From: Phytoseiulus persimilis
Lineage: Eukaryota > Arthropoda > Arachnida > Mesostigmata > Phytoseiidae
Assembly (NCBI GenBank): GCA_037576195.1
Contig: CM075103.1
Span: forward strand, 24,366,001 to 24,430,000
DNA: 64,000 bases
Direction of reading: 5' to 3'
The notes beneath the pieces were generated by a model that did no database searches, was not told the origin of the DNA, and saw only the letters and a program-made list of their open reading frames with translations. This document shows, piece by piece, positions 30,092 through 53,515 of the stretch (its first letter is position 1; each line of letters starts with the position of its first letter). The position numbers and the translations under genes are program-made.

Positions 30092-33000
30092 GTCGAATCA
30101 ACCGGGAAGACGCCATACGAGATGATCATGAGGAGAAAACCATACATCAGTCTCATCAGAGCATTCGGGATCGACGAAGATGAACTCAGCTATCGTGTGT
30201 GGTATCCCGAGACCAGACAGATCGTCAGGACAAAAGACGTGAAAATGAGCACCCCCAGGTCACTGGATGGAGGAGTCGCCTCGGAGAATGCCGCCGAAGC
30301 AGAAGCGCCTGAAGGCGATGGCGAAGAGCAGATCGAACAAGCCAATCCGTCAACGGATACCAGAGAGAACACATCAGCAAGAGGGGAAGCAGCATCCGCG
30401 GGCCGCGTGCCGGAAAGAGAATCCTCGAATGAAGGACATGGCGCTGCAGGAGCGGCTGCCCCAAGTGAAAAACGCAACGAACGGCGCGGGAGATACGAGC
30501 TACGAGATCGATCCAAGTTGCGTCCTCCGGAGAGGTACCGGGCCGGCACCGCACACGTTGCGATGTGTGTCAGCGAAACAGTAAGCACCGGTGTAAATAA
30601 TTTGGTTGACGAACCAACATGTATAGAAGATGTCCATAAGTCCGATTACAGCCAACAGTGGCTTAGTGCAATGGCGGAGAAGATCGCGTCACTCGATTTC
30701 CACAAGGTTTGGGAGCTCACCGAACTTCCAAAAGGCAGACGCACGGCTGGGAATCGATGGATCTTCAAAGCAAAGAAAGACGCCCTAGGTAACATCGAGA
30801 GGTTCCCTGCAAGATGGGTCATTCAAGGATTCAGCCAACGTCCAGGTACAGATTTCACAGAGCTCTACTCGCCTGTAGCTTGGTTCGATACCATCAAAAC
30901 GATTCTATCAATAGCTGCCAGGGAGAAACTGAAGCTATACCAATTCGACGTTAAGACAGCATTTCTTCACTCGGGACTATCGGAGGAAATCAACACGAAC
31001 CAACCTAAAGGGTTCGAAGATGGAACAAATCGAGTCTGCAAACTCTTGAAGGCAGTCTACGGCCTTCGTCAGGCATCAAGGGCTTGGAACCTGAAGATCA
31101 ACCAGGTTCTGACAGGACTTGGACTCACACAGAGCCAAGCTGATCCTTGCGTGTACTTCACGAATGACCCAAAACGAATTTTGCTTGCCTTGTACGTTGA
31201 CGATGGATTGACAGCGGGATCAGACCAAAAGGTCGTGCAGGAGTTTCTCGAGAACCTCGGTAAGGAGTTCGAAATCACTTCCGAGAAGTCAGAGTTCTTT
31301 CTCGGTCTACATGTCGAATCATCAGATGACAACTCCGTCATTCGTGTCCACCAATCAAAGTACATCCAAGAACTGCTAGAGAGATTCCAGATGTCAAAAT
31401 GCAAGGAAACAGCAGTCCCAATGGACAACAGCTACAAGTCGAATCCCAGTGACGAAATCGAACCAGAACTGCCGTATCGTACAATTGTTGGCGGTTTGAT
31501 GTACCTCACGATTGCGACGCGCTTTGACCTCGGTTACGTGGTGGGATACCTGTCAAGTTTCCTGGATCGTCCCACTAGACGTCTTTGGGATCACGCGTTA
31601 AGAGTGCTGCGCTACCTCGAAGGTACCAAGACTTTCGGTCTCCGGTACACGGGGAACGGTCCCGAGCTGCTCGAGTGCTTCAGCGATGCAGATTCCGCTG
31701 GCGACGAGCAAACGAGACGGAGCACCACCGGATCACTGATCACTGTCAGGCTCGAGCACCTGCGCATAGCTCATCGCCCGGGAGCAACGGCTGGAAGCAA
31801 ATGCATCCATCGGCGCAGGGAGTCGAATCCCGAGAACAGAAGCCACAAACATTGTTTCTGAGAATCTTGCCATCACTTCTGCGCCCAGCGGAAGCCTTGA
31901 CCGATCTCTTCATACCCTCAGAGGGAGAGACAGGCTCAGAAGAGAGTGATGCCGACGAATAAAGATCACTTACTTTGCCGGAACCACTTTTTTTCCGGGA
32001 GGGGGGGGAAGGATAGTCCAAGGTGAAAAATATTTTCGGCGAAAAAAAAAGTGCCTCTTTTTTTTTGGATTTTTTTTTTGCAAAACCTTCGACTTTCAGT
32101 GACCTTTCGATTCAGCTCAACTCCAGAGTGCGCACTCGACGCTATTTATTTTCGCGTCGGTCTCGAATTCATCGATTTTGAAGGTATTCGTCCATCTTCG
32201 ATCCAAACGGCATGTATGCTATCCGATAGCTCTCTTCTTCAGCTTTCCAAAACTAACTCGATCGGCGCTGTAACCCATCTGGGAGCCGAGATATGAGCCT
32301 TTTAAGTTGACCAAGTTTTGTCTGGAGTAGTGCAAAATCCGCGGGGCCGATGGCCAAGCCTTAATGGCCGAGACCCTTTGTCGAATCAACCGGGAAGACG
32401 CCATACGAGATGATCATGAGGAGAAAACCATACATCAGTCTCATCAGAGCATTCGGCACAGAGTGCAAATTTTATAACCACACCCCGCAGAAGGACAAGT
32501 CGGATACCAGAGGATTCCAAGGCTACATTGTCGGGATCGACGAAGATGAACTCAGCTATCGTGTGTGGTATCCCGAGACCAGACAGATCGTCAGGACAAA
32601 AGACGTGAAAATGAGCACCCCCAGGTCACTGGATGGAGGAGTCGCCTCGGAGAATGCCGCCGAAGCAGAAGCGCCTGGAGGCGATGGCGAAGAGCAGATC
32701 GAACAAGCCAATCCGTCAACGGATACCAGAGAGAACACATCAGCAAGAGGGGAAGCAGCATCCGCGGGCCGCGTGCCGGAAAGAGAATCCTCGAATGAAG
32801 GACATGGCGCTGCAGGAGCGGCTGCCCCAAGTGAAAAACGCAACGAACGGCGCGGGAGATACGAGCTACGAGATCGATCCAAGTTGCGTCCTCCGGAGAG
32901 GTACCGGGCCGGCACCGCACACGTTGCGATGTGTGTCAGCGAAACAGTAAGCACCGGTGTAAATAATTTGGTTGACGAACCAACATGTATAGAAGATGTT

Positions 33001-34106
33001 CATAAGTCCGATTACAGCCAACAGTGGCTTAGTGCAATGGCGGAGAAGATCGCGTCACTCGATTTCCACAAGGTTTGGGAGCTCACCGAACTTCCAAAAG
33101 GCAGACGCACGGTTGGGAATCGATGGATCTTCAAAGCAAAGAAAGACGCCCTAGGTAACATCGAGAGGTTCCCTGCAAGATGGGTCATTCAAGGATTCAG
33201 CCAACGTCCAGGTACAGATTTCACAGAGCTCTACTCGCCTGTAGCTTGGTTCGATACCATCAAAACGATTCTATCAATAGCTGCCAGGGAGAAACTGAAG
33301 CTATACCAATTCGACGTTAAGACAGCATTTCTTCACTCGGGACTATCGGAGGAAATCAACACGAACCAACCTAAAGGGTTCGAAGATGGAACAAATCGAG
33401 TCTGCAAACTCTCGAAGGCAGTCTACGGCCTTCGTCAGGCATCAAGGGCTTGGAACCTGAAGATCAACCAGGTTCTGACAGGACTTGGACTCACACAGAG
33501 CCAAGCTGATCCTTGCGTGTACTTCACGAATGACCCAAAACGAATTTTGGTTGCCTTGTACGTTGACGATGGATTGACAGCGGGATCAGACCAAAAGGTC
33601 GTGCAGGAGTTTCTCGAGAACCTCGGTAAGGAGTTCGAAATCACTTCCGAGAAGTCAGAGTTCTTTCTCGGTCTACATGTCGAATCATCAGATGACAACT
33701 CCGTCATTCGTGTCCACCAATCAAAGTACATCCAAGAACTGCTAGAGATATTCCACATGTCAAAATGCAAGGAAACAGCAGTCCCAATGGACAACAGCTA
33801 CAAGTCGAATCCCAGTGACGAAATCGAACCAGAACTGCCGTATCGTACAATTGTTGGCGGTTTGATGTACCTCACGATTGCGACGCGCTTTGACCTCGGT
33901 TACGTGGTGGGATACCTGTCAAGTTTCCTGGATCGTCCCACTAGACGTCTTTGGGATCACGCGTTGAGAGTGCTGCGCTACCTCGAAGGTACCAAGACTT
34001 TCGGTCTCCGGTACACGGGGAACGGTCCCGAGCTGCTCGAGTGCTTCAGCGATGCAGATTCCGCTGGCGACGAGCAAACGAGACGGAGCACCACCGGATC
34101 ACTGAT
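29478..34106 (+). repeat. Tandem segmental duplication inside CopB
   Basis: Unit A (29478-31743) and unit B (31744-34106) are nearly identical and both start at TGTCAGGCTCGAGC. Unit A lacks 78 bp found in B at about 32457-32535, with CGG microhomology at the deletion, and differs by about 20 bp near 29553. The junction fuses the RT end of unit A (GGATCACTGAT) to the fold-back centre, so unit A is a dead partial copy. Confidence 0.88.
30092..31743 (+). pseudogene. CopB pol, duplicate A (truncated)
   Basis: This holds the integrase C-terminus and reverse transcriptase. The internal 78-bp deletion removes part of the integrase C-terminal fold (between IRAFG and IDEDELSYRVW) but keeps the frame. 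RT blocks WLSAMAEKIASL, YQFDVKTAFLHSGL and YVDDGLTAGSD are intact. The RNase H begins (CFSDADSAGD) and is cut at 31743 by the duplication junction; a short read-through ends at 31861. Confidence 0.85.
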
Positions 34107-34590
34107 TCGGTTCGGAGGCGGAGTCATTACTTGGGCAAGCAACCGCCAAGCGTCCGTGACGCTCTCTTCAATGGAGGCGGAGCTTGTGGCCCTCTCTAAA
34201 ACGCTCAAGACCGCGATTTGGACAGCGCGCTTATTCGCAGAGATCCAGTCGTATCCAGACGTTGGACATCCAGTCGTACCAAAATTGCTCGTTGACAACC
34301 AGTCGACGATCGCTCTTGCTGAGAATTCATCCTTCCACAAGCACTCAAAGCACATCGAGGTGAGACATTTCTACTCTTGAGAGAAACTACAGCGCGGAGA
34401 AATCACAATCCATTATTGCCCGACAGCACAGAACGTTGCTGACATTCTGACGAAGTGCCTGTCTAGAGAAACGTCCCAAAGACTTGGATCACTTGGAGAT
34501 GGAAACCGTCAAGATGATGATCACGTTCGCCATAGTTTGCGTGATGGCCAGAAGCGCGTCGGGGTACTTCACATACTCCGACTGCGATAC
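32410..34590 (+). pseudogene. CopB pol, duplicate B: integrase end, RT, RNase H
   Basis: This is the better copy. It holds the integrase C-terminus (MRRKPYISLIRAFGTECKFY), an acidic linker, RT (YVDD at 33559-33570), and RNase H (CFSDADSAGDEQTRRS, SSMEAELVALS, VDNQSTIALAEN, KHIEVRHFYS). An in-frame TGA at 34378-34380 stops it just before the final conserved block (VADILTKCLS), which continues in the same frame to about 34590. Except for this stop and the upstream insertion it is well preserved. The end overlaps the start of the next gene. Confidence 0.88.
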
Positions 34591-34975
34591 TGATTGCCAG
34601 AAGATGAACTGGCCATGCACGATTTCCCAAACAAACGAGAATAACTTTCCATGCGAGTGCGTGGAGCTCGAAGCGAGCTGCCTCAGATTGGCGTCAAGAG
34701 AAGTTGTATGCCTGATCAAGAACAGGACTGCCGTAGGAGGAGAAGACGTTTGGATTCCATACTTCAACCATGCGCACCCGTCGACGCCTTCGCCCCCGGT
34801 TCCCGATCCTGATCGGACGATTGGATATTGGTTCGAATTTCTGTCGATATACGTTGTAGTTACAAACGTGTTCTCGGTGCTCGCCGGGTTGGTCATCCTC
34901 ACGAGATGGGTCAGACGAATTCGAGCGCGTTCATACGCTCACTTGCCTGATCCGCCTCTTGAACAGGAGGATTGA
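34499..34975 (+). CDS. CopB env-like small Cys-rich membrane protein
   Basis: The frame runs from the first ATG at 34499 (158 codons). A hydrophobic signal peptide covers residues 5-22. A cysteine-rich ectodomain follows with YFTYSDCDTDC, a Pro-Cys pair and further cysteines up to VVCLIKNRT (one N-glycosylation site). Then come a Pro-rich stalk, one transmembrane helix (about 110-133, ending LVILTRWVRRIRARS) and a short cytoplasmic tail with YAHLP. It overlaps the end of pol in another frame. The cysteine spacing matches the genes at 41195 (CopA) and 51182 (CopC). The position after pol is that of an envelope gene; membrane fusion or binding function is not shown. The frame is intact although pol is broken. 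Confidence 0.75.
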   Translation: METVKMMITFAIVCVMARSASGYFTYSDCDTDCQKMNWPCTISQTNENNFPCECVELEASCLRLASREVVCLIKNRTAVGGEDVWIPYFNHAHPSTPSPPVPDPDRTIGYWFEFLSIYVVVTNVFSVLAGLVILTRWVRRIRARSYAHLPDPPLEQED

Positions 34976-35080
34976 CCATACCGACCGACAACCGAAGAGA
35001 TTTGGGATATAACTCTTTCTTGTGAAACTCGCTTTTCCCAAATAATAAAACGCACGTCACCATTTACAAATTCAGAGATT

Positions 35081-35540: not shown

Positions 35541-36465
35541 ACGAACTTCGCTTCTTTCTTCAATAGTTCCGTCAGTGGGTTTGCCATGGTTGAATAGTTC
35601 CATACGAATCTTCGGAAAAACGACGTTAGTCCTAAGAACTTCCTCACTCCGTTGACGTCTGTCGGTGCTGCGAATCGCTCAATTGTCTCCAACTTAACAC
35701 CTCCCGGTTGTACTCCCCTCTTTGAAAGTTTGAATCCCAAGAATTGGACCACTCCTCTGAAGAATTTGCATTTTCCCAACCGAATCGTCAATCCTGCATT
35801 TCTCAGTGCCTTCAATATATTCTCGATCTGTTCCGGATGCTCCAAGTAATCGTCCGACGCTGTGATTGAGTCGTCCAGGAATGGAAACGCTTGTTGCTTT
35901 CCGACCATGTCTCTGACTTGTACCATCAGTTCTCGAAATTTTGAGGGCGCGGTACACAGTCCCATCATGAGGACCTTCGGCTCATAGTGTCCCTCCTTCG
36001 TGACGAATGCGGCTTTCTCTGAAGCCCTCGTGGTCATCGGTATTCGGAAATATCCCCACGCCAAGTCGAATGTTGAGTACAGTCGTTTGCCTCCAACCCA
36101 GTCCAATATGTCGTCGATGATCGGTAGTGGGTAACTGAGTTTCACTGTTTGCGCGTTCAGTTTCCTGTAGTCCATGACCATCCTCCGGCCGCTAGCCGCC
36201 ATCCGCTTTCCTCACCAGCAACACTGGACTCGCACACTCTGACTTCGACCTCTCTATAACAACCGCGTCTTTCAGTTGCGCTATTATTTCGCTCAAGGCT
36301 TTTTTTCTCAGCTTCTGACAATCTATACGGCTTACACCTGACCGGTTTGCTATTTTTCACTCCGTCTATGTCGAATTCTGTGAGGTCCGTTCTCCCTAGT
36401 TCCCTCATTGAAGTTGCGATGGCTTCTCGATTCTAATTCAGTATTCCAAGCAACTGAGTCCTGTG
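35541..36465 (-). pseudogene. Ty3/Gypsy reverse transcriptase fragment
   Basis: On the minus strand, starting at the CopA insertion point, is the RT entry segment (MRELGRTDLTEFDIDG, PVRCKPYRLSEAEKK). After a frameshift near 36210-36250 follow MVMDYRKLNAQTVK, YPLPIIDDILDWVGG, FDLAWGYFRIPM, FPFLDDSITAS (the catalytic DD) and FLGFKLSKRGVQPG. The frame ends near 35541, where LINE sequence begins, so RNase H and integrase are missing. An in-frame TAG sits near 36436. Confidence 0.88.
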
Positions 36466-36796
36466 TGTTGTAATATTTCGCTCAGACGGCCAAGCATACA
36501 GCGGCATCGGCTGACGAGCCGATGGCCATGGTACGGCGTCCCTGACGGAAGCGCTCGTCTATAGTTACCCTCTCATGTAACCCTGATCCATAGGATATAT
36601 AAGCAGCATACTTTACTTTAATAAATATCGTATTCTATCTATCGCTGTAGTCGTCGTAATCGTCGCGTACGCTACGCCGACGCTGTATCAGTTCTCAGTC
36701 CGCTTTCTGAAGAACGGTGCTTACGACTCTTCGAGCATTCGGAACCAGAGGCTCTCAACATTCAGATTAAGTTTAAAGTGCACGGAATCTTCGACA
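36466..36796 (+). repeat. CopA 5' LTR, 331 bp
   Basis: It begins TGTTGTAATATTTCG and ends TTCGACA, with TG...CA ends. It contains a TATA box TATATAAG at 36596-36603 and an AATAAA at 36620-36625, so it should drive and process the sense transcript. The target duplication CTGTG precedes it. It differs from the 3' LTR only by T at 36619. Confidence 0.97.
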
Positions 36797-36816
36797 CGTT
36801 ATCAGCACGATACTCC
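36797..36816 (+). promoter_or_regulatory. CopA putative primer binding site
   Basis: CGTTATCAGCAC directly follows the 5' LTR. It is complementary to the anticodon-arm sequence expected of a tRNA-Ile (GTGCTGATAACG) rather than to a tRNA 3' end. Internal tRNA priming is known for Drosophila copia, which uses initiator Met tRNA. The isoleucine assignment comes from general tRNA knowledge and is unverified. Confidence 0.45.
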
Positions 36817-36825
36817 AGAGTACCT

Positions 36826-36836
36826 GAGAGTAAGTA
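36826..36836 (+). promoter_or_regulatory. CopA candidate splice donor in the leader
   Basis: GAGA|GTAAGTAT, with the GT at 36830-36831, is a near-consensus 5' splice site between the LTR and the gag-pol ATG at 36894. A possible acceptor lies upstream of the env-like gene at about 41171 (TATTCCTCAATCAG). Splicing could yield a subgenomic RNA for that gene, as for retroviral env; this is not demonstrated. Confidence 0.4.
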
Positions 36837-36893
36837 TAAGTGCAATTACTTCCTTTTGACATCGGTCCCACTTGGAGTGACCTACCTAGGGCC

Positions 36894-39800
36894 ATGGCAG
36901 ACGACGACTACCAATACGATCTAGCTGCGCAGGAAGATGAACCTGCCGCGCTAAAGAAGGACGATTCAGAGCCCCGTCCATCCGACTCGAACTATACCAG
37001 GCTTGCCCCATGCCCAGTGACCCTAGGTCTGTTTGGACAAAACTATTTGAGTTGGAAATCCTTAATGCCCATCTTCCTACAACAAACCGTAGATGTTTGG
37101 GAAGTCGTGAAAGGAGACCTAGTTGAACCAATCCCAACCGAACCAGCTACCGAGCTTAATGATGATCAAAAGAAAGTCAAGGTTCGGTATGATAGAGCAA
37201 ATCGAAAAGCAAGACTCCAATTGTTCTCTTCGATCAACGACAAACTGATTGTCCAAATGTTTTACGGACAAACTCAGGATGTCAGAGCAGCGGATATCTG
37301 GTCCCAGATCGCAAGCAAGTTTGGAGTCCGAGCCGCTCTGCGGCAAGGTTCGGCCATCGCGAAATTGATGCAGTTCAAGTTCAATAAGAGCAAGACTGCT
37401 GACCAGAACCTGGATAGGTTCCGCGATCTTCAAGCCGAACTCACGGATTCTGGAATTGAGATCGATCAGAAGGTTCAGGTTGAACAACTGCTCAATGCTC
37501 TGCCACATAGCTGGGAACCCCTTCGTATGGCTTTTTCAGCCCGACCAGAAGGCGATAGGGATGTCTCCAGTCTGATGGAAATTATCAAGAATGAAGCAAT
37601 TCGCCAAAGACCATCCAAGGAATTGGATCAGGCGACTGCTATGCTTTCTCAGATGAGAGTTGGTCGCAGGTTTGCACCAAAACGTAGATCCCAAAATCGT
37701 TCTCATCGAAGAAATGCCCCCAGCCATCATTCACAAGGATCCAGCAGCAGTGGCTATGGTCAACAGAACCGTTCACGCCACCAGAGCAATAGACCAAACA
37801 GAAGACAAGTAAAGTGTTACAACTGCGGTGCAACAGGACATTTCAAGTCCCAGTGTACCCGCCCTCGGCGAGATCAAGGTTATCAAGGAGGAAGCGGACA
37901 GCACAGATCGCATGCTCGAGCAAGCACTGCCGTCGCACTCCTAGCTCACGTCAAGTATGACACAAGCAAAACCGATGAGTTCCTCGTAGATTCCGGCGCA
38001 TCGCACCATTGCAGTAGTTCAAGAAAGTGGTTCACTAGCTTTGACCAACAAACCGACATGCGCGCCGTCACCTTAGCAAGCAACCAGAAACTGCGTGTCA
38101 CCGCTTCTGGCACAGCCGAGCTGACTGTCGGAGAGTCTAAGCAGCGAATGGCTTTAGAGCTTAAAAATGTTTTACTTGTCCCCTCAGTTCGAAAGAATCT
38201 CCTCTCTGTGAGTCAATTGACAGATGATGATTTCGAAGTGACGTTCAAAAGGAATCACCTCATAATTTCGAGAAACGATATGAGGATCCGAGTACCCAAG
38301 ATAGAAGGCCTCTACAGATTAAGAATGGACTCGGAGATCGGATTACAACAAGATCAGGCAAGCGATCAAGAATCCGTAGACCAAGACGCAGACAGCGATC
38401 TTGACGACATGAATCATGATATTCCGTCTGAAAGCCAAGTGATGAGCGCCATTGGCTCAGAAAAGACGATGAGTGCACAGACGCAGAGCCTTAGAAGCCT
38501 GCATGAAAAGTTCGCCCATGTTAATAGGCAGTACGTGATTAAATATTTGAACCAGCAGGGTATCAAGTACATTGATGATCTAGACCAATGTGACGCCTGT
38601 CTGAAGGGGAAGCTCACCCGAATCACGTACAGGAGCCGCCCTGATCAGGCGAAAGCTCAGAAGCCGGGCATCATAACGGCAGACCTTTGTTCGCCTAATG
38701 TAGAGTCAATAGAAAAAGCAAAGCATTTCCTTCTATTCACTGACGAAGCAACCAGCTATCGAAAGGTCGAATTTCTCCAGAAAAAGGGCGACACTTATCG
38801 ATACGTTGCCTCCTACGTAAAATGGTTCAGAAACGTAGTTGGCGAAAACATTCAGAGGTTGCACAGTGACAACGGAACGGAGTTCAGAAACCAAAAGGTT
38901 AAGAAGATCCTGGAAAGGATCGGAGCAGAACAAACGTTCGCCCCTCCAGGACAACCCCGTTTGACAGGAAAAGCAGAGAGAGGAAACAGAACTCTCGTGA
39001 ATCTAGCTCGATCAGTGTCGATCGGAGCAGGCCTCGAAAATAAGAAGTTCCTTTGGGACCAGGCGATCCTTTTCTGTGTTCAAGTTTTGAACCAAGTACT
39101 GATAAATGAAAAGACTCTACAGTCGCCTTTCGAGATGATATACAGGCGAAAGCCATTCACCAGCAGAATGTACGCATTTGGCACACCGTGCTACGTACAC
39201 AACAAGAACCCAAATGGGAAGCTGGATGACCGCGGAATCGCGGGGATATTCGTTGGGTATCTAGACTACGATCTTGGATTTCGTGTCTACATCCCAGAGA
39301 AACGAATTATCATGCGATCGAAGGACGTAACATTCGCGAAGATCGCTTCCACTAAAAGGCAAGGTTCTGGCAGAACCAAGGCAAGTGAAAAAACAAGTGC
39401 TTCGGAAAAGACTGCGGAAGCAGCGCACATTGCGAAAGAAGCCAATCACGATACGGAGGTCACAGGTTCAAGAATAAAATCACCAAAGCCAGCAGCACCC
39501 ATGTACGAAAGCGCCTCAAGTGATTACGAAAGCGACGAAGAAGGTTTCGTACGCATTAATCCCAAGGCGAACAAGAAACGTACGGAAAGACTGCAGATTG
39601 CGGCTGACCTCAACCATCTTAGTGGGATATCGAAAAAGGAAGGGGCAGCAACCGACACCGTTCAGCCGAAAAGCCAAACGCCAATGACTTATCAAGAAGC
39701 AATGGCAAGCCCCGATCGTGTCCACTGGACGAAGGCCGTTGAAGAAGAACTTCAGGCAATGGCTGACATGAAGGTGTGGACTCCCGCAACACTACCACCT

Positions 39801-41207
39801 GGACGTAAGGCCATTGGCTCCAAATGGGTATTCAAGTACAAAGCTAACCCAGATGGCACAGGACGTTACAAGGCTCGAGTAGTTGCGAAGGGATATTCGC
39901 AGAAGAAAGAAATAGACTTCTTTGCAGACAAGATATACAGCCCCGTATCCCGAGCTGAAGGAATCAGAACGATCCTCAGTCTAGCAGCGCAGGAAAAACT
40001 TTTCCTAAATCAGTTTGATGTACGCGCAGCTTTTCTTCAAGCAGAACTCGAGGAAGACCTCTATCTTGAGGTGCCTGAGGGCGTAAGAGGAGTACAGGCC
40101 AACAAGGTATTGAAACTACTGAGAAGCATATATGGCCTCAAGCAGTCAAGCCGAAATTTCTTTGATAAGCTAACGAAGATCCTTCTGTCCAGAGGACTTC
40201 AACAGAGCAAAACTGACAGCTGTATCTTCTTCAAGAATGGAGAAAATCGCATGCTCTTGTGCATATGGGTCGATGATGCCATACTTGCAACGAAGACTGA
40301 AAGACAGGCGGAGGAATTCATAACTTCCCTCAGGAAAGAATTCGAGATCACTACTTCTGGTCTTAGATACTTTCTAGGTCTTCAGATCGAAAGAGGCAGC
40401 GACTTCTCGGTCCACATTCATCAAAAGAAATTCGTGGACGAGTTAGTACAGAGATTCGGTATGTCAGATTCGAAAGGAGCAGTCACCCCATGTGACAATT
40501 CGATATACTCTATCGAGACCAACGGTCCGTGCTCTAATACCGAATATCGTTCTCTGATAGGAGCTCTCCTATATTTGGCTTGCGGCACGAGAGTTGACAT
40601 TTCTTTTGTCACTTCCTACCTATCAAGATATATGGACAAATCAACTCCTCAGCATTTCCAGGCTGGCTTGAGAGTTCTGAGATACTTGAAGACAACCTCA
40701 GATCTGGGCATCACGTACAGAAGTGATGACACCCAAGGTACGCTGTACTTCAGCGATTCAGACTTCGCTGGATCCATTGAGGATCGCAAGTCTACTTCAG
40801 GATGTCTGATACTCAGACAGGGGGGCCCAATTATTTGGAGCTCCACAAAACAAGCGAACATTTCGCTTTCCTCCATGGAATCAGAATTCGTGGCATCTAC
40901 AGAATGCATCAAGTCAGCGCTCTGGCTTCGCAACCTTCTGGGAGAATTGGGTATCCCAGAAAAGCCGATCATCCAGATAGATTCGATGTCAGCCATTCAA
41001 TTGCTCAAGAATGCCAGACACTATCGTAGAGCTAAGCATATGGAACTCAGATTTCATTACATTCGAAAGCTCTACTCGAATCAAGAAATTGGGATCGAGC
41101 ACGTTGGAAGCGCCAATCAAAGAGCGGACTACTTAACCAAGCCCTGTGTAAAGTCAGTATTCCTCAATCAGAGAGAACTGTCAGGACTTGAGAGATGGCG
41201 TCAGTAA
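36894..41207 (+). CDS. CopA gag-pol polyprotein
   Basis: A single frame of 1,437 codons starts at ATG 36894 in strong context (GCCATGG); the frame is open slightly upstream, but only with GTG. Domains: Copia Gag core (about 40-280), zinc knuckle CYNCGATGHFKSQC from residue 308, aspartic protease LVDSGASHH (Asp366), integrase zinc region (SLHEKFAHVN ... CDACLKGK), catalytic Asp597, Asp659 and Glu695, reverse transcriptase with QFDVRAAFLQAE and WVDD (Asp1127-1128), and RNase H with YFSDSDFAGS, SMESEF and IDSMSAI. All catalytic residues are present and there is no stop. Proteins are expected to be cut apart by the protease in a cytoplasmic particle. Its last 13 bases overlap the env-like gene. 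Confidence 0.95.
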   Translation: MADDDYQYDLAAQEDEPAALKKDDSEPRPSDSNYTRLAPCPVTLGLFGQNYLSWKSLMPIFLQQTVDVWEVVKGDLVEPIPTEPATELNDDQKKVKVRYDRANRKARLQLFSSINDKLIVQMFYGQTQDVRAADIWSQIASKFGVRAALRQGSAIAKLMQFKFNKSKTADQNLDRFRDLQAELTDSGIEIDQKVQVEQLLNALPHSWEPLRMAFSARPEGDRDVSSLMEIIKNEAIRQRPSKELDQATAMLSQMRVGRRFAPKRRSQNRSHRRNAPSHHSQGSSSSGYGQQNRSRHQSNRPNRRQVKCYNCGATGHFKSQCTRPRRDQGYQGGSGQHRSHARASTAVALLAHVKYDTSKTDEFLVDSGASHHCSSSRKWFTSFDQQTDMRAVTLASNQKLRVTASGTAELTVGESKQRMALELKNVLLVPSVRKNLLSVSQLTDDDFEVTFKRNHLIISRNDMRIRVPKIEGLYRLRMDSEIGLQQDQASDQESVDQDADSDLDDMNHDIPSESQVMSAIGSEKTMSAQTQSLRSLHEKFAHVNRQYVIKYLNQQGIKYIDDLDQCDACLKGKLTRITYRSRPDQAKAQKPGIITADLCSPNVESIEKAKHFLLFTDEATSYRKVEFLQKKGDTYRYVASYVKWFRNVVGENIQRLHSDNGTEFRNQKVKKILERIGAEQTFAPPGQPRLTGKAERGNRTLVNLARSVSIGAGLENKKFLWDQAILFCVQVLNQVLINEKTLQSPFEMIYRRKPFTSRMYAFGTPCYVHNKNPNGKLDDRGIAGIFVGYLDYDLGFRVYIPEKRIIMRSKDVTFAKIASTKRQGSGRTKASEKTSASEKTAEAAHIAKEANHDTEVTGSRIKSPKPAAPMYESASSDYESDEEGFVRINPKANKKRTERLQIAADLNHLSGISKKEGAATDTVQPKSQTPMTYQEAMASPDRVHWTKAVEEELQAMADMKVWTPATLPPGRKAIGSKWVFKYKANPDGTGRYKARVVAKGYSQKKEIDFFADKIYSPVSRAEGIRTILSLAAQEKLFLNQFDVRAAFLQAELEEDLYLEVPEGVRGVQANKVLKLLRSIYGLKQSSRNFFDKLTKILLSRGLQQSKTDSCIFFKNGENRMLLCIWVDDAILATKTERQAEEFITSLRKEFEITTSGLRYFLGLQIERGSDFSVHIHQKKFVDELVQRFGMSDSKGAVTPCDNSIYSIETNGPCSNTEYRSLIGALLYLACGTRVDISFVTSYLSRYMDKSTPQHFQAGLRVLRYLKTTSDLGITYRSDDTQGTLYFSDSDFAGSIEDRKSTSGCLILRQGGPIIWSSTKQANISLSSMESEFVASTECIKSALWLRNLLGELGIPEKPIIQIDSMSAIQLLKNARHYRRAKHMELRFHYIRKLYSNQEIGIEHVGSANQRADYLTKPCVKSVFLNQRELSGLERWRQ

Positions 41208-41746
41208 TGCAGCAGGTATTCGTAGCAGTAACAATATTCATAATCCCCTCTAATCAATACTTTAGCTACTCAGACTGCGACGCCAAATGCATAACACGAA
41301 ACTCTCCATGTATGTTAGTTAAACTGGATTCTGGTAGATTCTCATCATTTTGTACACCACTAGCATTGTGTGAACTACACACCACCGAATACGCTCCCTG
41401 TATCAAAGAGTCTTCTCCAACCTCTGGAGGACTCAGACTGTGGCCCGAGTATCGCAATCGAACTCTGCCACCAAAGCCGACTGTTAAGCCATGTCCACCA
41501 ATTCCACAAACACCGAACTGCAATTTCTGGAAGTACCTATCCGCCATTCAAGGGGTAGTGTCACTCAGTACGCTTTCGGTAATTATGATGCTCAAACTAC
41601 TAAAGTTTAGAGCTCGTTTGTCTTACGAGCCAGTGGACACTTCTCTAGTAGACGATCCGACCATGCCGTACAGAACAACCGTCCAAAGCATAGACGAAGC
41701 CTCCGGCAGCGGGGTCGAGCGACAGCAGTCTTCCCCTTCAGAATAA
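41195..41746 (+). CDS. CopA env-like Cys-rich membrane protein
   Basis: 183 codons from an ATG inside the end of pol, in a different frame. A signal peptide covers residues 1-21 (VFVAVTIFIIPSNQ). The ectodomain starts YFSYSDCDAKC and holds about nine cysteines, an N-glycosylation site (NRT) and a Pro-rich stalk (PPKPTVKPCPP). One transmembrane helix follows (about 126-148, GVVSLSTLSVIMMLKLLKF). The cytoplasmic tail has YEP and is acidic and Ser-rich. It shares the opening motif Y-F-[ST]-Y-S-D-C-D-x2-C, a Pro-Cys and the GG-x-x-[LV]-W block with the CopB gene, and the cysteine pattern with CopC. Type I topology after pol is envelope-like. No fusion peptide or furin site is obvious, so it may instead be a receptor-like or trafficking protein. 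Confidence 0.85.
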   Translation: MASVMQQVFVAVTIFIIPSNQYFSYSDCDAKCITRNSPCMLVKLDSGRFSSFCTPLALCELHTTEYAPCIKESSPTSGGLRLWPEYRNRTLPPKPTVKPCPPIPQTPNCNFWKYLSAIQGVVSLSTLSVIMMLKLLKFRARLSYEPVDTSLVDDPTMPYRTTVQSIDEASGSGVERQQSSPSE

Positions 41747-41890
41747 GTTTTGAAGGCGAGAAAAGACTGACTAGTCAGCAAAGTAAATAGTCAGGCTCAC
41801 GTAGAAAAAAGGAGAAACATGAGATGAGAAAGTAACATACCTGCCAGACTAACTCAGAGAAGAATCACATGAGATACACATAACGGTTTA
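41747..41890. other. Convergent 3' region between env-like gene and antisense gene A
   Basis: This 144-bp gap separates the stop codons of two convergent genes. It holds no other frame. Confidence 0.6.
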
Positions 41891-41892
41891 TT
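41887..41892 (-). terminator. Poly(A) signal of antisense gene A
   Basis: AATAAA on the minus strand overlaps the stop codon (TAATAAA). Confidence 0.6.
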
Positions 41893-42493
41893 AACAAGGA
41901 GGAATGATAAAATCACAGCCGGAATTGAACCAGCTCGTGAAGGCATTGTCCGTGAGGCCTCTCGGCCAGAGATCCGGATGGGCGTAGAGGTAGGTGCGAA
42001 TCTTCTTCACCTCCTCCACGATGACGCGATTCGCCGCCAGATCTTCCAGGCGACCCCGGTATTCTGGGGTCCTCGCCTCCCACTCGGCGACGATCAACGA
42101 GGCTGGGATTCGGCGCTCGTGGTCGCCGAAGGTGTCACGGATCAGACTGTTGAACTCGTCGAATCCGCGCCTTGACGGAGCTGGAAAGCGATCCAGATGG
42201 AGATGGACCTTGGCGCTTTCCACGGCCGAGCGAACGCTGCTCGGCATCTGCATACTATCGAGGAACCGCAGTCCCTCGAAATCTCGGCCCAGGTGGTTAA
42301 ACCTGAGCAACGAGTGCTGGTGTTCACACCAGCAATCTGCAACCGAACAGTAGCAGATTCGTGGCAGCGATTTCCACGAGGCCATGTCACAGCTGGGATC
42401 GTCGACATCATCCCAGGTGACCGTTTGTCTGGTCACTGGGGACGGGCCTTTGTACCCGCAACACGGGCATGCATCGGGCCGGATCGCGGACAT
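41891..42493 (-). CDS. CopA antisense gene A: Cys-cluster protein, unknown
   Basis: 200 codons from ATG at 42493, complete. The N-terminus has a zinc-site-like cluster CPCCGYKG and then CYCSVADCWCEH, seven more Cys/His within the first 60 residues. The rest is soluble and helical, with paired acidic and basic residues and a final YAHPDLWPRGL stretch. There is no signal peptide or membrane helix, so a cytoplasmic or nuclear protein is expected. The stop codon overlaps an AATAAA (41892-41887), and a TATA-like CTTAAAAG lies about 80 bases upstream of the ATG (42584-42571). It is convergent with the sense gene. No family is recognised. Confidence 0.7.
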   Translation of the reverse strand: MSAIRPDACPCCGYKGPSPVTRQTVTWDDVDDPSCDMASWKSLPRICYCSVADCWCEHQHSLLRFNHLGRDFEGLRFLDSMQMPSSVRSAVESAKVHLHLDRFPAPSRRGFDEFNSLIRDTFGDHERRIPASLIVAEWEARTPEYRGRLEDLAANRVIVEEVKKIRTYLYAHPDLWPRGLTDNAFTSWFNSGCDFIIPPC

Positions 42494-42836
42494 GTTTGCA
42501 GATGAGCTTGAGAGTCACTGAGATGGTACACACAAAAAAAAAAACGTTGTGAACTCCGAAACGTCGGAAACATCTTTTAAGGCGATGACCCGAACCATAG
42601 AGCGAGGGGAAGCATCCGAGAGAGGGAAAGCTACGAAACAGGGATAGCTTGACCCCAGATGCTCACTAAAGAATGTTTAGCCGAAGAAATCAATCACTAA
42701 CAAGCAACTCGAGAACCACTTAGGAATCCGAATGGCTGTACCGCTTCAAAGCTCCAAAATAACTGCAGCATCATCCGAGCATCGGATGGCATCTAGAGCT
42801 TGAGTACACAAACGAGAAAATCGACGACACGTTCTC

Positions 42837-43403
42837 TCAGGATTGACTTATGAGTTTTCGTTTATTTTCACACACATCAGTTACCAGGACTGTGTGGGCG
42901 AACACGTCCATGTCAATGGTGAATTGATAAGCACTGATGATTTTGAGAGTAGATTTTGAATTTGGTCGCACCACACATACATTCTGATAACCATCCACAC
43001 AAATTTTGAATTTTGAATATGAGCGACAGATGAGATATGAGGTGTGAATATCAATAGAGCGTCCTTCGGTTGTAATGAGATGAAAAATGTCGATGAGTGA
43101 TGATGTCCCCACACCCGTCGTCACCACCGGACCCTTGATGGTGTGCAGGGCCGGTGGGAGAGGACGGGTGACTTTAATATGTACAGGATCCGCAAACGGG
43201 TCGGCGCGCTGCGCGACCTCAAATGCGACGCCCGGGATCGTCACATACAACAACGTACAGAGAGCTGCGATGGCAGCGAACCGAAGGCGACCGAGGCTTC
43301 TCAACCTCCGAGTGCCACCGCAATTTTGCAGCGTTCGGTACGTGGGGTCGTCGGCAATCGACGACAGCGAACTCTCGAGGACGTTATGATCTCCGGAATG
43401 CAT
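42837..43403 (-). CDS. CopA antisense gene B: type II membrane protein
   Basis: 188 codons from ATG at 43403; an upstream in-frame extension to 43475 has only a TTG. An N-terminal cytoplasmic part of 40 residues ends in Arg-rich sequence (TRRLRSLGRLR). One membrane helix covers 42-60 (FAAIAALCTLLYVTIPGVAF). The ectodomain of about 125 residues has four cysteines; C126-x8-C135-x7-C143 followed by VVRP is also found in gene C. A TATA box CTATAAAATG is at 43590-43581, and AATAAA (42866-42861) lies just before the stop. The positive-inside rule predicts type II orientation. Function unknown; a surface or attachment role is only a guess. Confidence 0.75.
   Translation of the reverse strand: MHSGDHNVLESSLSSIADDPTYRTLQNCGGTRRLRSLGRLRFAAIAALCTLLYVTIPGVAFEVAQRADPFADPVHIKVTRPLPPALHTIKGPVVTTGVGTSSLIDIFHLITTEGRSIDIHTSYLICRSYSKFKICVDGYQNVCVVRPNSKSTLKIISAYQFTIDMDVFAHTVLVTDVCENKRKLISQS
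42861..42866 (-). terminator. Poly(A) signal of antisense gene B
   Basis: AATAAA on the minus strand lies 22 bases before the gene B stop codon, so cleavage is expected just after the stop. Confidence 0.55.
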
Positions 43404-43580
43404 CTGTGTGTGTAAAGGGACCAATTCAGAACCGAGAACTTGCCCATATGACAAAGAGAAAAACAGGTCGGACAAAACCTACATTCAACTTTCGGATGAG
43501 AGTTTCCTTTTCTCTTCGCTTGACGAACTTCTTTATTTGGCTGAGAGACGACTCGGCACACCAATGGAGAAGAGTCAGGC

Positions 43581-43590
43581 CATTTTATAG
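43581..43590 (-). promoter_or_regulatory. TATA box of antisense gene B
   Basis: CTATAAAATG reads on the minus strand about 180 bases upstream of the ATG at 43403. It lies between the 3' end of gene C and the start of gene B, where an own promoter would be expected. Confidence 0.5.
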
Positions 43591-43701
43591 GGACAAGAAA
43601 TCACAATTTCTTAAAGCATACGGAGCATAAAATTTATGCAGAAACACAGGACGATATACCACGATAGAAGAGAGGATGCATGATAAGTACAATTGAAGTG
43701 A

Positions 43702-43707
43702 TTTATT
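43702..43707 (-). terminator. Poly(A) signal of antisense gene C
   Basis: AATAAA on the minus strand lies about ten bases after the gene C stop codon. Confidence 0.6.
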
Positions 43708-43716
43708 CAGAATCAA

Positions 43717-45035
43717 TCAGAGAAATATTCCAATGTACCAAGAAAAATTTCTGCATCTCGGTATCGTCCCGTACAGCTTCTCAAAAGACGCTCGATCTGA
43801 CTCAGATAGCTTTGCTACTTTCAGCGACTCAGAGACCCTAAGAGGATTGGGTCGACCGCTGGAGTCATATCGAGTAGGCTGTATCAGGCAGATAAAGTCT
43901 GCAGTAGAAACACATACGGAGAGATTATGAGATCTATGCCAGCACACAAATTTGTTTGGTCTATAGTAGTATTTGTGCGGACGATTCTTCAGATCTTTCA
44001 TCAGCTCTTTGATCTTGAGCATAGTCGAAACAATCATGGGTCTCTCCGATTGTGCAGCAGTAACTTCTTGTGTTGAAGAACGATGCGGGTGGATGACGTC
44101 GGCGATTATTGTTGAAATCTCCGACTCCGGTCGGATTGTAGTCGAGCGAGTGTTGTCAATTAGCGAATCCTCAAGACGACGCTCAACAGAATTGCCTGCC
44201 TGATTCACGACGATTGGAACCTCGATCGATCTATTAGAAGCAGGCACTGCGATGGGAACAACACGATCACTAGCCGAATTCAAAGCTGGATCGGCCGACT
44301 GCGGAACCGTTACAGACTGCTCTACAACACGTGTTCCGCCACCGACGGGGAGAGAGTGATCTGAAGCAGACGTCCACGCGCCATCATCATTCAACAAAAC
44401 CGGCGAAGGAGAGGAAGTCGTTTCCGTAACATCAACAGAAGCGTTCGTTTGTGCGGGGATGTATTCTGGAGTGGTTTCCCCAGAAGCATCCAGTTCAATT
44501 GCCCCGGACGCCGACAATCCAATCGAGACATTCCTCGAAATGGGGGGCCGTGTGATGTTCTCTACAGCCCTGCCATTATAAACATCAACGCTCGCCGCCA
44601 ACGAACACAAACAAGATCCATCCGGAAAAAGCAAAACGGACAGATTCGTTGGAGCAGACCCGAGTTCCTTCAACAGATGAGCTGACGAAACGCCATCACC
44701 ATGAGGATAAGTAGGATCTGCAAATATGGTCGATATATCGAACATCAGAAAGGCATGAAATTATATGCATCAAAATATCGACGATACTAACGCTCAGTGA
44801 TCCAGGCCAACATTGCCACATTCCCAACCAATGACAATAGGCAAAGGACGAGCAACAGAAGGAACGGACGTGTACAACAGGAAACAGGATCGGAACCAAT
44901 CACGTCCGGAACATAACGAGGCTCCAGATCACCGTCAAGATTAACCTCACTCATTTCGTATTGCTCAGCTTGAGCAACACCGTAGGAACCACGAAACCGT
45001 CGAAATTGAGTGAGACGCGCAATCAACGAAGACAT
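43717..45035 (-). CDS. CopA antisense gene C: spliced type II mucin-like membrane protein
   Basis: Two exons, 45035-44792 and 44717-43717, give 414 codons in frame. Exon 1 encodes a cytoplasmic segment rich in charged residues and a membrane helix (FLLLLVLCLLSLVGNVAML). Exon 2 encodes a long Ser/Thr/Pro-rich ectodomain with several N-glycosylation sites (NLS, NIT, NVS, NAS), and a C-terminal Cys domain with C-x9-C-x7-C followed by LIQP and RYD. The intron has GTTAGT and TTTGCAG borders and exactly joins the two frames. AATAAA (43707-43702) follows the stop by about ten bases. Unspliced, exon 1 ends at a stop right after the helix. Mucin-like stalks with a distal Cys head are common in attachment glycoproteins, but that is analogy only. 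Confidence 0.72.
44718..44791 (-). other. 74-nt GT-AG intron of antisense gene C
   Basis: The donor GAGC|GTTAGT and acceptor TTTGCAG|ATCC on the minus strand bound 74 bases. The intron contains a stop in the upstream frame and a +1/-1 offset, and its removal makes one frame through both exons. The length is typical of short arthropod introns. Splicing would act only on the antisense RNA, so the sense genomic RNA keeps the intron when the element transposes. Confidence 0.7.
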
Positions 45036-45311
45036 CGTCAGAGCTCGAGATTTCAAGACAATATGAAACTCGACAGACTCAACATCGAACCAAGGGAGTC
45101 TGGTGACATAAGCGAGGAGATCGATCAACAGGAACCAACATTCAAGGAATCTCCCGAATCAGCCTCACGCTCTGGAATGTGAACATATGATACGTATGAC
45201 TAGAATCATAGTATAGAATTCTAGGCGACATATTTTTGGATAAGGTTCATTTTGATTATTACGAATTACGCCTATATGCATTCTTGCCCGCCTGCTTGAA
45301 ATGGGGGGCTT

Positions 45312-45642
45312 TGTTGTAATATTTCGCTCAGACGGCCAAGCATACAGCGGCATCGGCTGACGAGCCGATGGCCATGGTACGGCGTCCCTGACGGAAGCGC
45401 TCGTCTATAGTTACCCTCTCATGTAACCCTGATCCATAGGATATATAAGCAGCATACTTTACTTCAATAAATATCGTATTCTATCTATCGCTGTAGTCGT
45501 CGTAATCGTCGCGTACGCTACGCCGACGCTGTATCAGTTCTCAGTCCGCTTTCTGAAGAACGGTGCTTACGACTCTTCGAGCATTCGGAACCAGAGGCTC
45601 TCAACATTCAGATTAAGTTTAAAGTGCACGGAATCTTCGACA
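45312..45642 (+). repeat. CopA 3' LTR, 331 bp
   Basis: It is preceded by a purine-rich tract (AAATGGGGGGCTT, ending 45311) that fits a polypurine primer for plus-strand synthesis. It ends in CA at 45642 and is followed by CTGTG. It has C at 45465 where the 5' LTR has T. Confidence 0.97.
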
Positions 45643-45647
45643 CTGTG

Positions 45648-49920: not shown

Positions 49921-50446
49921 ATCTTTGATTTCCTACTCATTTTGTTCCAACCTTTTCCCACTGCTACTACATTATTTGAGACTGCTGTACTTCAGCAGGT
50001 CTTAACATCTCATTTGTTTTCCAACTTGTACCAGTCGTGACCGTTAGCCCGATTCGTGGCTTCAGCATTCAACAACAACAGTCATGACTGGGTCGTGCGA
50101 GTTCTTGCTGTTGGGACTGAGCCGGACCTGGACGTCGATGAGTCGAAGCCAGCGTCAGTCGGTTAGAGTACCACTTCAGGCCCTCCGTCCAGCACTTTCT
50201 CTCTGTCTCCAAGCACAACTGAAGCTTCTGATTCAGTCCTGCCGAGCAGTTCTGAGAGCCTACTGAGGCTTCAGCAACACCACTCCGGCATCGGATGACG
50301 GCACCACAGAACTCAGCGTCACAGACACAGCCACCAGCGCTTCGACTGATGACACCAACACCACCGAGGCACGGTCTATGAGCCTTCCCATTTCTACCAG
50401 AAGATACCAATGTATCACTTTTGAGTACAATCGGACCTACTAGTCA

Positions 50447-50776
50447 GTGCTGGACAGGAAATGTGTGTTTGCCCACCGATCTACTGCTTTGAAGCTTGAG
50501 CTCCATGTGTTCCGGTATGATGAGACCGAAAAGTTCGCATCACCCTCGGAGCATGCCAAATTTCAGAGATCAAGTACTGACCTGGTGAAGTTCTTATGCT
50601 TAGGATCAAATCCGATCATCATAGATTCGATTATTTATTTTGTGAATGGGAAGTCTCAATGTCAGCCTCTCATTCATCCTCTACAGTGGATTGGTGAGGT
50701 GACTCGGGTCCCGTCGGGTGTTAACCTACAGAAGGCAGAATTTCACTCATCGCTGGTACTGTCTACGCCGCCCTGA
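50447..50776 (+). pseudogene. CopC opposite-strand C-terminal Cys/RYD domain
   Basis: This open frame of 109 codons begins SVLDRKCVFAHRS and contains HVFRYDETEKFASPSEH and LVKFLCLGSNP. The block RYD plus Ser/Glu-rich helix resembles the C-terminal domain of CopA gene C (TRYDSSGRPN ... SFEKLYGTIP). Its stop (50776) is convergent with the stop of the env-like gene (50763). An in-frame stop lies just upstream, so the piece is detached from its stalk. Confidence 0.4.
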
Positions 50777-51182
50777 TCGAATCGAGCAGGTTATGGCTTT
50801 TGAGCAGACTTACATCAAAACAAGTGTAGTGATTTTGCAGCACAGTTGCGTGGACCTGGAGGAATTTTCTTCCACTTGATGAAACAGGTGTAGGTGCTGG
50901 TGGTTTCTCATGTGCATAGTTATAGGATTCGATAAAGATATCGACTCCTCCAAATGTTGTTCCATTTGGTAACGGGAGAGCCGCAACAGGAGATGCCCTC
51001 TCAATGCAGATTTGATCGCTCATCAAGCCATCGCATGGGAAATAATCGATGTTCAGTACGGATATCATACAGGGTTGTCTCTGTCGGTTGCACTGCGGGA
51101 GGCAATCATCCTCGCACTGGGAGGACGCAGCCGCTTTTGCCGCTGCCAGGAGGAGAGCGAACTGCATTATCTGTAATGCCAT
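50763..51182 (-). pseudogene. CopC env-like Cys-rich protein
   Basis: 140 codons start at ATG 51182, overlapping the pol end as in CopA and CopB. A signal peptide covers 1-20 (IMQFALLLAAAKAAASS). It is followed by CEDDC, a Pro-Cys pair (RQPCMISV), YFPC, ICIERA, an N-glycosylation site (NGT) and GGVDIFI...YNYAHEKP. The spacing matches CopB (VGGEDVWIPYFNHAHPS) closely. After the Pro-rich stalk the expected transmembrane helix is absent, so the 3' part is probably frame-shifted or lost. Confidence 0.65.
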
Positions 51183-51189
51183 CTTCTCT

Positions 51190-53515
51190 CCGTTCCTTGA
51201 GCCAGAAGTATCGTATGGCTGTATTGTAACGTATTGTAACGTTCAGATTCCTGGGCTTCTGTCAACAGTTGGATGCAACTTGTGTTGTCCACGTTGAGAG
51301 TCGGAGTGATTTGATGTCCGACTTCCTGCAACAGCCTTCTCAGCCCCAAACAGGTCTTACTCATTTCACTTTATTTCACGATATTGCTTTCAAAGGGGAT
51401 AGAAGCGTTATACAGCTTTGGCTTCTTGAAGACCAACATACTTGCGCTCCACCAAATATTTGAGCTGCTCCACTGGTACTGCACCGAGTGTCTCTGCAAC
51501 CACATTACAGCAGGCATCAATCTGGGCGTGAGTACCGCCAGTATACGTGGGACCGTGGTTCCGGGTTTCTGATGGAAACCTCAACGTTTTTGGACCGACG
51601 CTCCATAGGTGGCGTGTTGGTTTGTCTACGTATTTTGACATTAGTCCAACGGCGTAGGAACTATATCCTCTAGTTCCCACCGCCACGAACCTCAAAGCCC
51701 CTTCGAGCTCTCTATACATCAGAGTAAGATCAATTCCTCCCTCAAATGCAGATCTCGACGTTGAGTCGATTGGTACAGAAGACACGTTACAATCTGACAT
51801 CTGGAAACGATCTAGTAGCTCGGTAACATACTGGGCTTGATCCTAATGGATCCTACCTCCGTCGGGAGAGATCGCAATCCTCAATCCCAATAAAAACTCG
51901 AGCGGCGCCGTGGTAAGTCTAAAGGTTTTCTCTAGTTCCTTTATTATTCTTTGATTCATTTGTTCATCGTTTGAGCCTATCAGGCCATCATCAACGTATA
52001 TCAGAACAAAAACTCGAGTCGGAGGATTTGGAAAGTACAAGCAAGAGTCCAACTTGCTTCTGGTCAACTCGACCATATTGAGACTCAACAATGTGTTGCT
52101 CAATTTCTGGTTAAACCAATACCACGCCTTCAATAGTTCACAGACTCTGTTGGTACCGTTGTCCAAACCAGCTAGCTGTTCCATAAAGAGTCTTTCGTCT
52201 GATGGCGCAGACGAGAAGGACGTGCACATATCCGTGTGGTTCAAACGGAGACGCTCCTGTGCAGCGATTGACAGTACTGCCATAATCGTGTCACTTCACA
52301 GGGCTAAACAGACTATCATAGTCAATTCCAGCTCTTTGTTTATATCCTCTTACCACGGGCCTGGCCTTCCTCTTGATTATGCTATTGTCCTTATCAGTTA
52401 TCAACGGGAAGAACCATCTATTCTTCAGGACATTTTGTCCGCGTTCCGGGTCCACGAGTTTGCAAACCTGATTAGTTCTGAAGGACTCTAGTTCCAATGC
52501 CCTTGCCGCAAACCATTCATTTTTATACTCCGAGCGATACACGTCCACTAGGTTAAGAGGCACGTCTGCCTGTGAGTTGAACAGGGGGTCGCTAGTTTCA
52601 TTGGTTGTAGTACTACTTGTCACATTGTAGGCTATCCCTGCCTCAAAATGGTTCGGCTTCTTAGAGGTACCTTTGTCTCTTAAATTGTACTTGCTTCCCT
52701 CGATTTTTCCCTCCATCCTTGCCGAGCTCTGGTTTCTGGTGCGTCCGCGCGGTTCTCTGGCAGGAGAGGCTTCATCGCCGGGTCCCGAACCCGATGCGAT
52801 GGCTCGCTCGTCGTCTACGTTCCTTTCTCCTTCCAAGTTGTCGTCATCACCGGTGCTGTCTGGCTCACTGGTGTCGTTGGGTGAGGGATCCGCTTCCTGT
52901 TCTTTTTCTTCATCCATAGAAGGCTCGTTGATATTCGCTTGAACCTCTTGGGGAATTCCCGTACCCGATCGAAGACTTCTAACTTATTCTGGAGGGAGTA
53001 GGTTTCTCAAAATCGGCTATGGTTATCGGTCAATGTCTTGAAAACGTTATGTCCGCCGCAGGAAGGCGTACTGACGAAACAGACATCGCTCTTGATCCAT
53101 CCGTTACGAGGGGCAAGTGAGCTGCTGAGTTCCGGCCGATAGCTAGCTCTGGGCATTTTTCCTTTGACGCAGCTATCAAAGCTGAGGAAATCTTTGATTA
53201 CGTCATATCCTTGACGTTGTAGCAATGACTTGAGCCGTCCGGCGTGGAAATGAGCGAAATTCCGGTGCATTTAAGTGAGGCTGTCCTTTTTCTTCGGTTT
53301 GATGTCTCGGCGTTGTATTCTTCGGCGGAGTCCACGGCATACAGGGGGTAAAGGCCATACTTCCTTGTTGCTCGAATGGACGTCTTCCCTCGAGTCATGA
53401 TGATAGAATTCCGGGAGATCCTGATCTCAAACTTGTCATCTGCGAGCTTTGAGACCGATATGAGATTTCGGCGGAGTTTCGGAACGTACAGCACCTTATT
53501 CAGCTGGATTGTCAC
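51190..53515 (-). pseudogene. CopC pol
   Basis: Blocks in order: post-protease LNKVLYVPKLRRNLISVSKL, integrase zinc region (NFAHFHAGRL ... FDSCVKGKM) and first catalytic Asp (KSDVCFVS), a gap where the integrase core is lost, the acidic linker and RT start (YRSEYKNEWFAARALELESF), RT with LIYVDDGLIGSND (YVDD at 51998-51987), and RNase H remnants (NVDNTSCIQLL). Frameshifts lie near 53200, 52285, 51840 and 51400, and the second and third integrase catalytic residues are missing. Confidence 0.82.

Follow-up and report, generated by a model that had tools for sequence, protein, structure and literature searches.

A Copia retrotransposon of Phytoseiulus persimilis with genes for predicted membrane proteins on both strands

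Copia elements are usually regarded as strictly intracellular gag-pol elements, and the long terminal repeat (LTR) elements that bear an env gene include the errantiviruses and the plant Sireviruses. Here we describe a Copia element at 36466-45642 (plus strand) of a 64,000-nucleotide stretch of the Phytoseiulus persimilis genome (assembly GCA_037576195.1, contig CM075103.1, positions 24,366,001 to 24,430,000 of the forward strand; hereafter the window). Besides gag-pol it carries a second sense open reading frame (ORF), ORF2, and an antisense set best read as three genes, g1, g2, and g3. Like this element, env-bearing LTR elements have an extra ORF with membrane features after pol. Their env, however, is a single gene on the sense strand, whereas the set in the window is divided between the two strands, and comparison with Pfam and the Protein Data Bank (PDB) gave no env relative for ORF2 or the g1 domain.

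LTR elements of bdelloid rotifers can carry a paramyxovirus-type fusion protein (PMC5408684), and there is precedent, without a classical Env, for capsids being moved between cells by a small transmembrane (TM) protein of LTR elements (PMC11952523). The latter protein, sORF2 of the Drosophila MDG1-group elements (412, Stalker2), resembles ORF2 in being a small sense-strand product whose TM segment is followed by a basic patch, accessory to gag-pol and found in recently active elements (PMC11952523). The MDG1 group belongs to Metaviridae, with sORF2 placed ahead of gag (among 22 lepidopteran elements, 7 have it after pol), and the protein has about 70 amino acids (aa), an ectodomain of about 30 aa and often a myristoylation motif, with candidates given for the forward strand only (PMC11952523). 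ORF2 of the window, in contrast, sits in a Copia element downstream of pol, is 183 aa long and Cys rich, and has antisense partners. A long region between pol and the 3' LTR with antisense genes is also a lineage trait of plant Retand, and perhaps of Grande, but Retand is a Gypsy lineage with TRP28 and other DNA-related domains and with sense ORFs that lack TM segments (PMC11963269), whereas the window element encodes predicted membrane proteins, has an RVT_2 reverse transcriptase (RT), and shows no TRP28 match in its antisense ORFs. The GalEa-like Copia elements of crustaceans are metazoan and have gag and pol in the Copia order, as here; the description of CoRex1, a member of this group, gives two ORFs, gag and pol, and the word antisense is absent from the text of that paper (PMC3587641). 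LTR elements with additional ORFs, or with ORFs on the antisense strand, have been described before; in the literature listings searched we recognized no Copia element with a conserved gene set that occupies both strands and includes membrane proteins.

The element and its genes

The anatomy of the element, together with the selection on its frames described below, is the part of this account of which we are nearly certain. The 5' LTR (36466..36796, plus strand; ends TGT..ACA, with TATATAAG and an AATAAA inside, identified by eye) and the 3' LTR (45312..45642, plus strand) are 331 bp each and differ at one base, and both flanks carry the target-site duplication (TSD) CTGTG (36461..36465 and 45643..45647). 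The purine-rich tract AAATGGGGGGC (45299..45309, plus strand) lies upstream of the 3' LTR. The gag-pol frame (36894..41207, plus strand; 1,437 codons) is intact and has the Pfam domains Retrotran_gag_2, zf-CCHC, rve, SH3_retrovirus, and RVT_2, of which rve, the integrase, scored 32.5 bits, slightly below its cutoff of 32.6. LTRs, a short TSD, integrase ahead of RT, and an RVT_2-type RT place the element in Ty1/Copia (Pseudoviridae). The initial annotation had described this LTR pair with its duplication, an intact gag-pol, and a 183-codon membrane protein overlapping pol, all of which stand, the last as a protein predicted from hydropathy.

That protein, ORF2 (41195..41746, plus strand), is an open frame of 183 aa whose first 13 nt overlap the end of pol. 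An ORF2 ATG overlaps a pol-frame stop at loci L063 and L066 as well and sits a few bases past it at L064 and L065, and this overlap or near-adjacency makes coupled re-initiation or frameshifting a possible route of ORF2 translation. The protein has a hydrophobic, signal-like N terminus (MASVMQQ), a six-Cys ectodomain, a Pro-rich stem, a TM segment at residues 115-133 by hydropathy (with 114 aa before it), a basic patch (KLLKFRAR), and a tail with YxxPhi and PYxxT motifs. In an alignment of nine loci the six Cys are invariant and YxxPhi lies downstream of the TM segment in all nine. A confident structure model gives residues ~21-90 of the ectodomain a small alpha/beta fold; ORF2 matched no family or fold in Pfam, PDB sequences, or PDB folds.

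Four ORFs on the minus strand (41891-42493; 42837-43475, with its first ATG at 43403; 43717-44745; and 44787-45128) are best read as three genes, of which g1 would be spliced. An in-frame donor and acceptor, and the unbroken 414-aa reading obtained when 45035-44792 is joined to 44717-43717, argue that the two ORFs nearest the 3' LTR are one gene; all 11 other copies examined have the same donor and the same acceptor. Exon 1 (44792..45035, minus strand) would encode a cytoplasmic N terminus and a signal-anchor TM segment, the putative 74-nt intron (44718..44791, minus strand) reads GTTAGT..TTTGCAG, and exon 2 (43717..44717, minus strand) encodes a stalk with N-glycosylation sequons and a C-terminal domain with four Cys that are invariant across six sequences. 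The TM segment is at residues 58-76, with all seven sequons downstream of it. The second gene, g2 (42837..43403, minus strand), has 188 aa, one TM segment at residues 43-61, a domain related to that of g1, and a hypervariable block. We therefore predict from the sequence that g1 and g2 are type II membrane proteins with a common four-cysteine domain, and the charge rule supports this topology for g2 (+5 before the TM segment, -2 after). The third gene, g3 (41891..42493, minus strand), has 200 aa, a Cys-rich N terminus, and no TM segment, and is related to an antisense ORF of L063. The initial annotation also gave three opposite-strand genes; here g1 is drawn from two of the four ORFs and read as spliced. 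Its proposal of membrane or surface functions for the set agrees with the hydropathy of g1, g2, and ORF2 but not with g3.

A profile built from g1-type domains only was searched against 2,057 ORFs from all six frames, with reversed sequences as decoys, none of which scored better than E = 0.61. It found g2-type ORFs on the antisense strand in L065 (7e-7), L064 (1.2e-4), the window (4.7e-4), and L044 (5e-3), and gave only 0.044 for the g2-type ORF of L063. The g1 domain had no match in Pfam, PDB sequences, PDB folds, or BFVD. No Pfam family matched any of the four antisense ORFs, g2 included, up to E = 1, and g3 had no match in Pfam or PDB sequences.

An AATAAA lies at the end of each antisense gene: 9 nt past the g1 stop (43702..43707), within the last g2 codons (42861..42866), and overlapping the g3 stop (41887..41892), all on the minus strand. 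This points to separate antisense transcripts for g1, g2, and g3. Ten antisense stops were compared at seven loci, the window among them. Six have AATAAA or ATTAAA (all three in the window and three of the other seven), and the background frequency in random stretches of 130 nt is 4.8%. Upstream of g2, TATAAAAT (43582..43589, minus strand), picked out by eye, is a possible antisense promoter.

Selection, allele exchange, and distribution

Selection was estimated as the ratio of nonsynonymous to synonymous substitution rates (dN/dS), pooled over NG86 pairwise comparisons that are not independent of one another, among copies that were the best matches returned by search. Among unbroken, distinct copies dN/dS was 0.16 for polC (4 copies), 0.22 for ORF2 (10), 0.23 for g3 (4), 0.27 for g2 (13), and 0.33 for g1 exon 2 (9), and it was below 1 in 5 of 6, 44 of 45, 6 of 6, 76 of 78, and 32 of 36 pairs, respectively. 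Including broken copies changed these values little (0.19, 0.22, 0.26, 0.28, and 0.34, in the same order). In a six-frame control the annotated frame had the lowest dN/dS for ORF2, g3, g2, and g1 exon 2, and other frames were mostly about 1 or above, except for the mirrored-phase frame r1, whose low ratio comes from having the third-position signal in common with the annotated frame; for polC, r1 fell slightly below the annotated frame (0.16 versus 0.20). Counted over distinct places, frames free of frameshifts and stops made up 15 of 19 for ORF2, 14 of 18 for g2, 9 of 12 for g1 exon 2, and 7 of 20 for g3. ORF2, g3, g2, and g1 exon 2 are under purifying selection and are not chance ORFs.

With the antisense block (41750-45300) as query, the genome returned 52 matches, the window's own included, of which 14 (again with its own) span at least 3,170 of the 3,551 bases at 91-100% identity; all genome match counts given here are lower bounds. 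The LTR pairs of the window element and three others differ at 1, 0, 0, and 0 of 331 bases, respectively, and each element has a 5-bp TSD, which indicates recent movement. These results bear out the earlier view of a young, recently mobile element with an accessory gene set on two strands. Neither of the refuting outcomes named with that view was seen: near-full copies carry the block, which is not a one-off capture, and the main extra frames evolve at dN/dS of 0.22-0.33.

The g2 region diverges from the rest of the element. Eight copies were compared with the window along the 3' half in pieces of 150 bases. In seven of them identity falls to 74-94% between 42800 and 43399, with the lowest values (74-78%) at 43250 and 96-99% regained by 43550; the exception, L010, keeps 96-97%. 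The boundary on the g3 side is less sharp, with several copies at 85-97% over 42200-42650, and the other pieces are at ~92-100%. Synonymous divergence (dS) from the window is 0.34-0.56 for g2 in eight of nine copies (0.08 in L010), compared with 0.015-0.051 for pol and 0.024-0.062 for g1 exon 2, and copy L011 is close to the window in g3 (0.06) and distant in g2 (0.35). So large a synonymous excess fits old g2, and partly g3, alleles exchanged through recombination rather than fast recent evolution. With g2 dN/dS well under 1, positive selection across the whole gene is unsupported. At C2:5594900-5600200 and C2:5663900-5677900, units of g3 and g2 recur at a spacing of about 1.39 kb, and the g2 in them shares about 60% identity with that of the window.

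The gene set is also found beyond the family of the window element. ORF2 has 140 matches in the genome, the most distant at 25% identity, and families whose pol is 35, 52, and 56% identical to that of the window element carry ORF2. The antisense Cys domain is present in L064, L065, L066, L068, and L069, and searches with single proteins placed it at 7, 39, and 62 places. Pairing was counted over 129 of the 140 ORF2 matches (11 second fragments dropped; about 20 come from the same family as the window element) and 137 distinct antisense matches of 167 (1 duplicate dropped, and 29 that were fragments or lacked the domain). At 80 of the 129 ORF2 matches the antisense domain follows on the other strand, no more than 6 kb downstream and at a median distance of 245 nt, and the domain was on the same strand in 1 and upstream in 6. 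ORF2 therefore looks like the wider trait, with the antisense set in many, not all, of the families seen. The initial annotation inferred a lineage that had acquired the gene set. A new acquisition by this element itself is at odds with families of 35-56% pol identity that share ORF2, the majority of the sampled ones having the antisense domain too.

Possible functions of the gene set

We give a probability of roughly 0.5 to the reading that ORF2 and the antisense set form an envelope-like system for cell-to-cell transmission. An LTR-driven sense mRNA would yield Gag-Pol, plus ORF2 from the start that overlaps the pol stop, and ORF2 would be a small type I membrane protein with a trafficking-type YxxPhi in its tail. 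Separate antisense mRNAs with their own poly(A) signals, one of them spliced, would give g1, g2, and g3. The first two would be single-pass type II proteins with a common four-cysteine ectodomain, on a sequon-rich stalk in g1, and would most likely bind the target cell; g3 would be a soluble helper usable in trans. ORF2 would join membranes or steer particles to the surface, and particles could then pass between cells, for example from soma to germline. We favor a cell-to-cell surface set because of the topology, the trafficking motif, the linkage to a particle-forming element, and the diversity of g2; transcription, splicing, topology, surface display, and transmission are all inferred from DNA.

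Several observations weigh against this reading. The charge rule fails for the type II topology of g1 (-1, -2), and g2 has no N-glycosylation sequon. The line between g1 and g2 types is soft, as the g1-domain profile also matches unclassed ORFs of L068 (7e-4) and L064 (a second ORF, 1.1e-3). Exon 1 of g1 by itself gives no clear sign of selection (dN/dS 0.70, codon-position chi2 0.5, and another frame lower at 0.45 in the six-frame control), and the codon-position bias of g1 exon 2 is weak (chi2 5.2). No partner was found at 48 of 129 ORF2 matches, and 55 of 137 antisense matches had no ORF2 match where one was expected. Both sampled loci of a 187-aa ORF2 class, L067 and L070, have no antisense domain downstream; their likeness to each other ends 253 bp past ORF2, with an N in L067 near that point. 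Of 20 places with g3, 13 have a broken frame, including all three recently moved elements sampled, and the gene is therefore probably not needed in cis, or else broke after insertion. The earlier label of env-like would describe topology: when ORF2 and the g1 domain were compared with Pfam, PDB sequences, and PDB folds, no family of env proteins, fusogens, or attachment proteins matched.

The main rival, which we consider possible but clearly less probable, is that the antisense genes work inside the producing cell as regulators or in host interaction, acting for example on transcription, silencing, or superinfection, as has been proposed for plant Retand. Antisense ORFs of LTR elements have been read as regulatory in two reports (PMC11963269, PMC8220671), g3 is Cys rich and without a TM segment, and swapped g2 alleles also fit evasion of the host or of rival elements; one strong TM segment each in g1 and g2, the position of all the g1 sequons after it, and the lack of any DNA-binding family among the Pfam matches speak for membrane proteins instead. 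We find it doubtful that ORF2 does the membrane work by itself, as a cell-to-cell fusogen of the FAST or sORF2 kind, with the antisense genes unrelated. ORF2 does occur in a class in which no antisense domain was found, and its single TM segment followed by a juxtamembrane basic patch recalls MDG1 sORF2. The sORF2/FAST-like proteins described, however, have 63-107 aa and an ectodomain of ~30 aa and were chosen by an N-myristoylation motif (PMC11952523). None of these features is seen in ORF2, which has 114 aa before the TM segment, six conserved Cys, and a hydrophobic N terminus, and the two genes occur together at 80 of 129 ORF2 matches. That the antisense block is captured passenger DNA or a set of chance ORFs, as the breakage of g3 might suggest, is very improbable given purifying selection in every main frame, conserved splice sites, and recurrence in families with 35-56% pol identity, and is already contradicted for g1 exon 2, g2, and ORF2.

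More tentatively than for transmission itself, one may picture a whole Copia lineage with a two-strand envelope, made of a sense type I protein and paralogous antisense type II glycoproteins (one spliced), with serotype-like, recombining classes of g2 alleles and possible virus-like spread between cells and perhaps hosts. If true, the Copia superfamily too would have explored virus-like transmission, by way of antisense membrane-protein genes. The set supplies concrete genes and splice sites for testing cell-to-cell movement of retrotransposons, and the hypervariable g2 block would make a within-genome arms race measurable.

Neighboring elements and repeats

The purine-rich tract ahead of the 3' LTR (45295-45314) has a 20-nt copy, 85% identical, at 44534-44553 inside g1, which is a possible central polypurine tract. 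Upstream of the element, 32410-35005 (plus strand) belongs to the second Copia family, the one with 35% pol identity, and holds an ORF2 homologue at 34514-35002 with one internal TGA. This copy is cut short in the window; the other copies listed mostly match it only up to about 35173, and some copies of the family (e.g., near C3:21151700 and C1:43169700) carry the antisense Cys domain. In the assembly, the TTAGG repeat gave no match.

A third, decayed Copia element occupies 50342-52917 on the minus strand; at 50763-51182 (minus strand) it encodes an ORF2-like protein with a Cys pattern. The stretch at 50342-50563 (plus strand), interrupted by one internal TAG, matches the antisense Cys domain of L069 at E = 1.2e-6, whereas the g1-domain profile gave just 0.025 there. 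L069 itself has an ORF of 302 aa at 2638-3546 (minus strand), with a TM segment near its C terminus, on the same strand as its antisense Cys gene; this ORF may belong to another element. A satellite-like tandem repeat at 17084-22996 of the window reads open over long stretches in several frames, and akin repeats occur in L063, with a spacing of 45 nt, and in L067.
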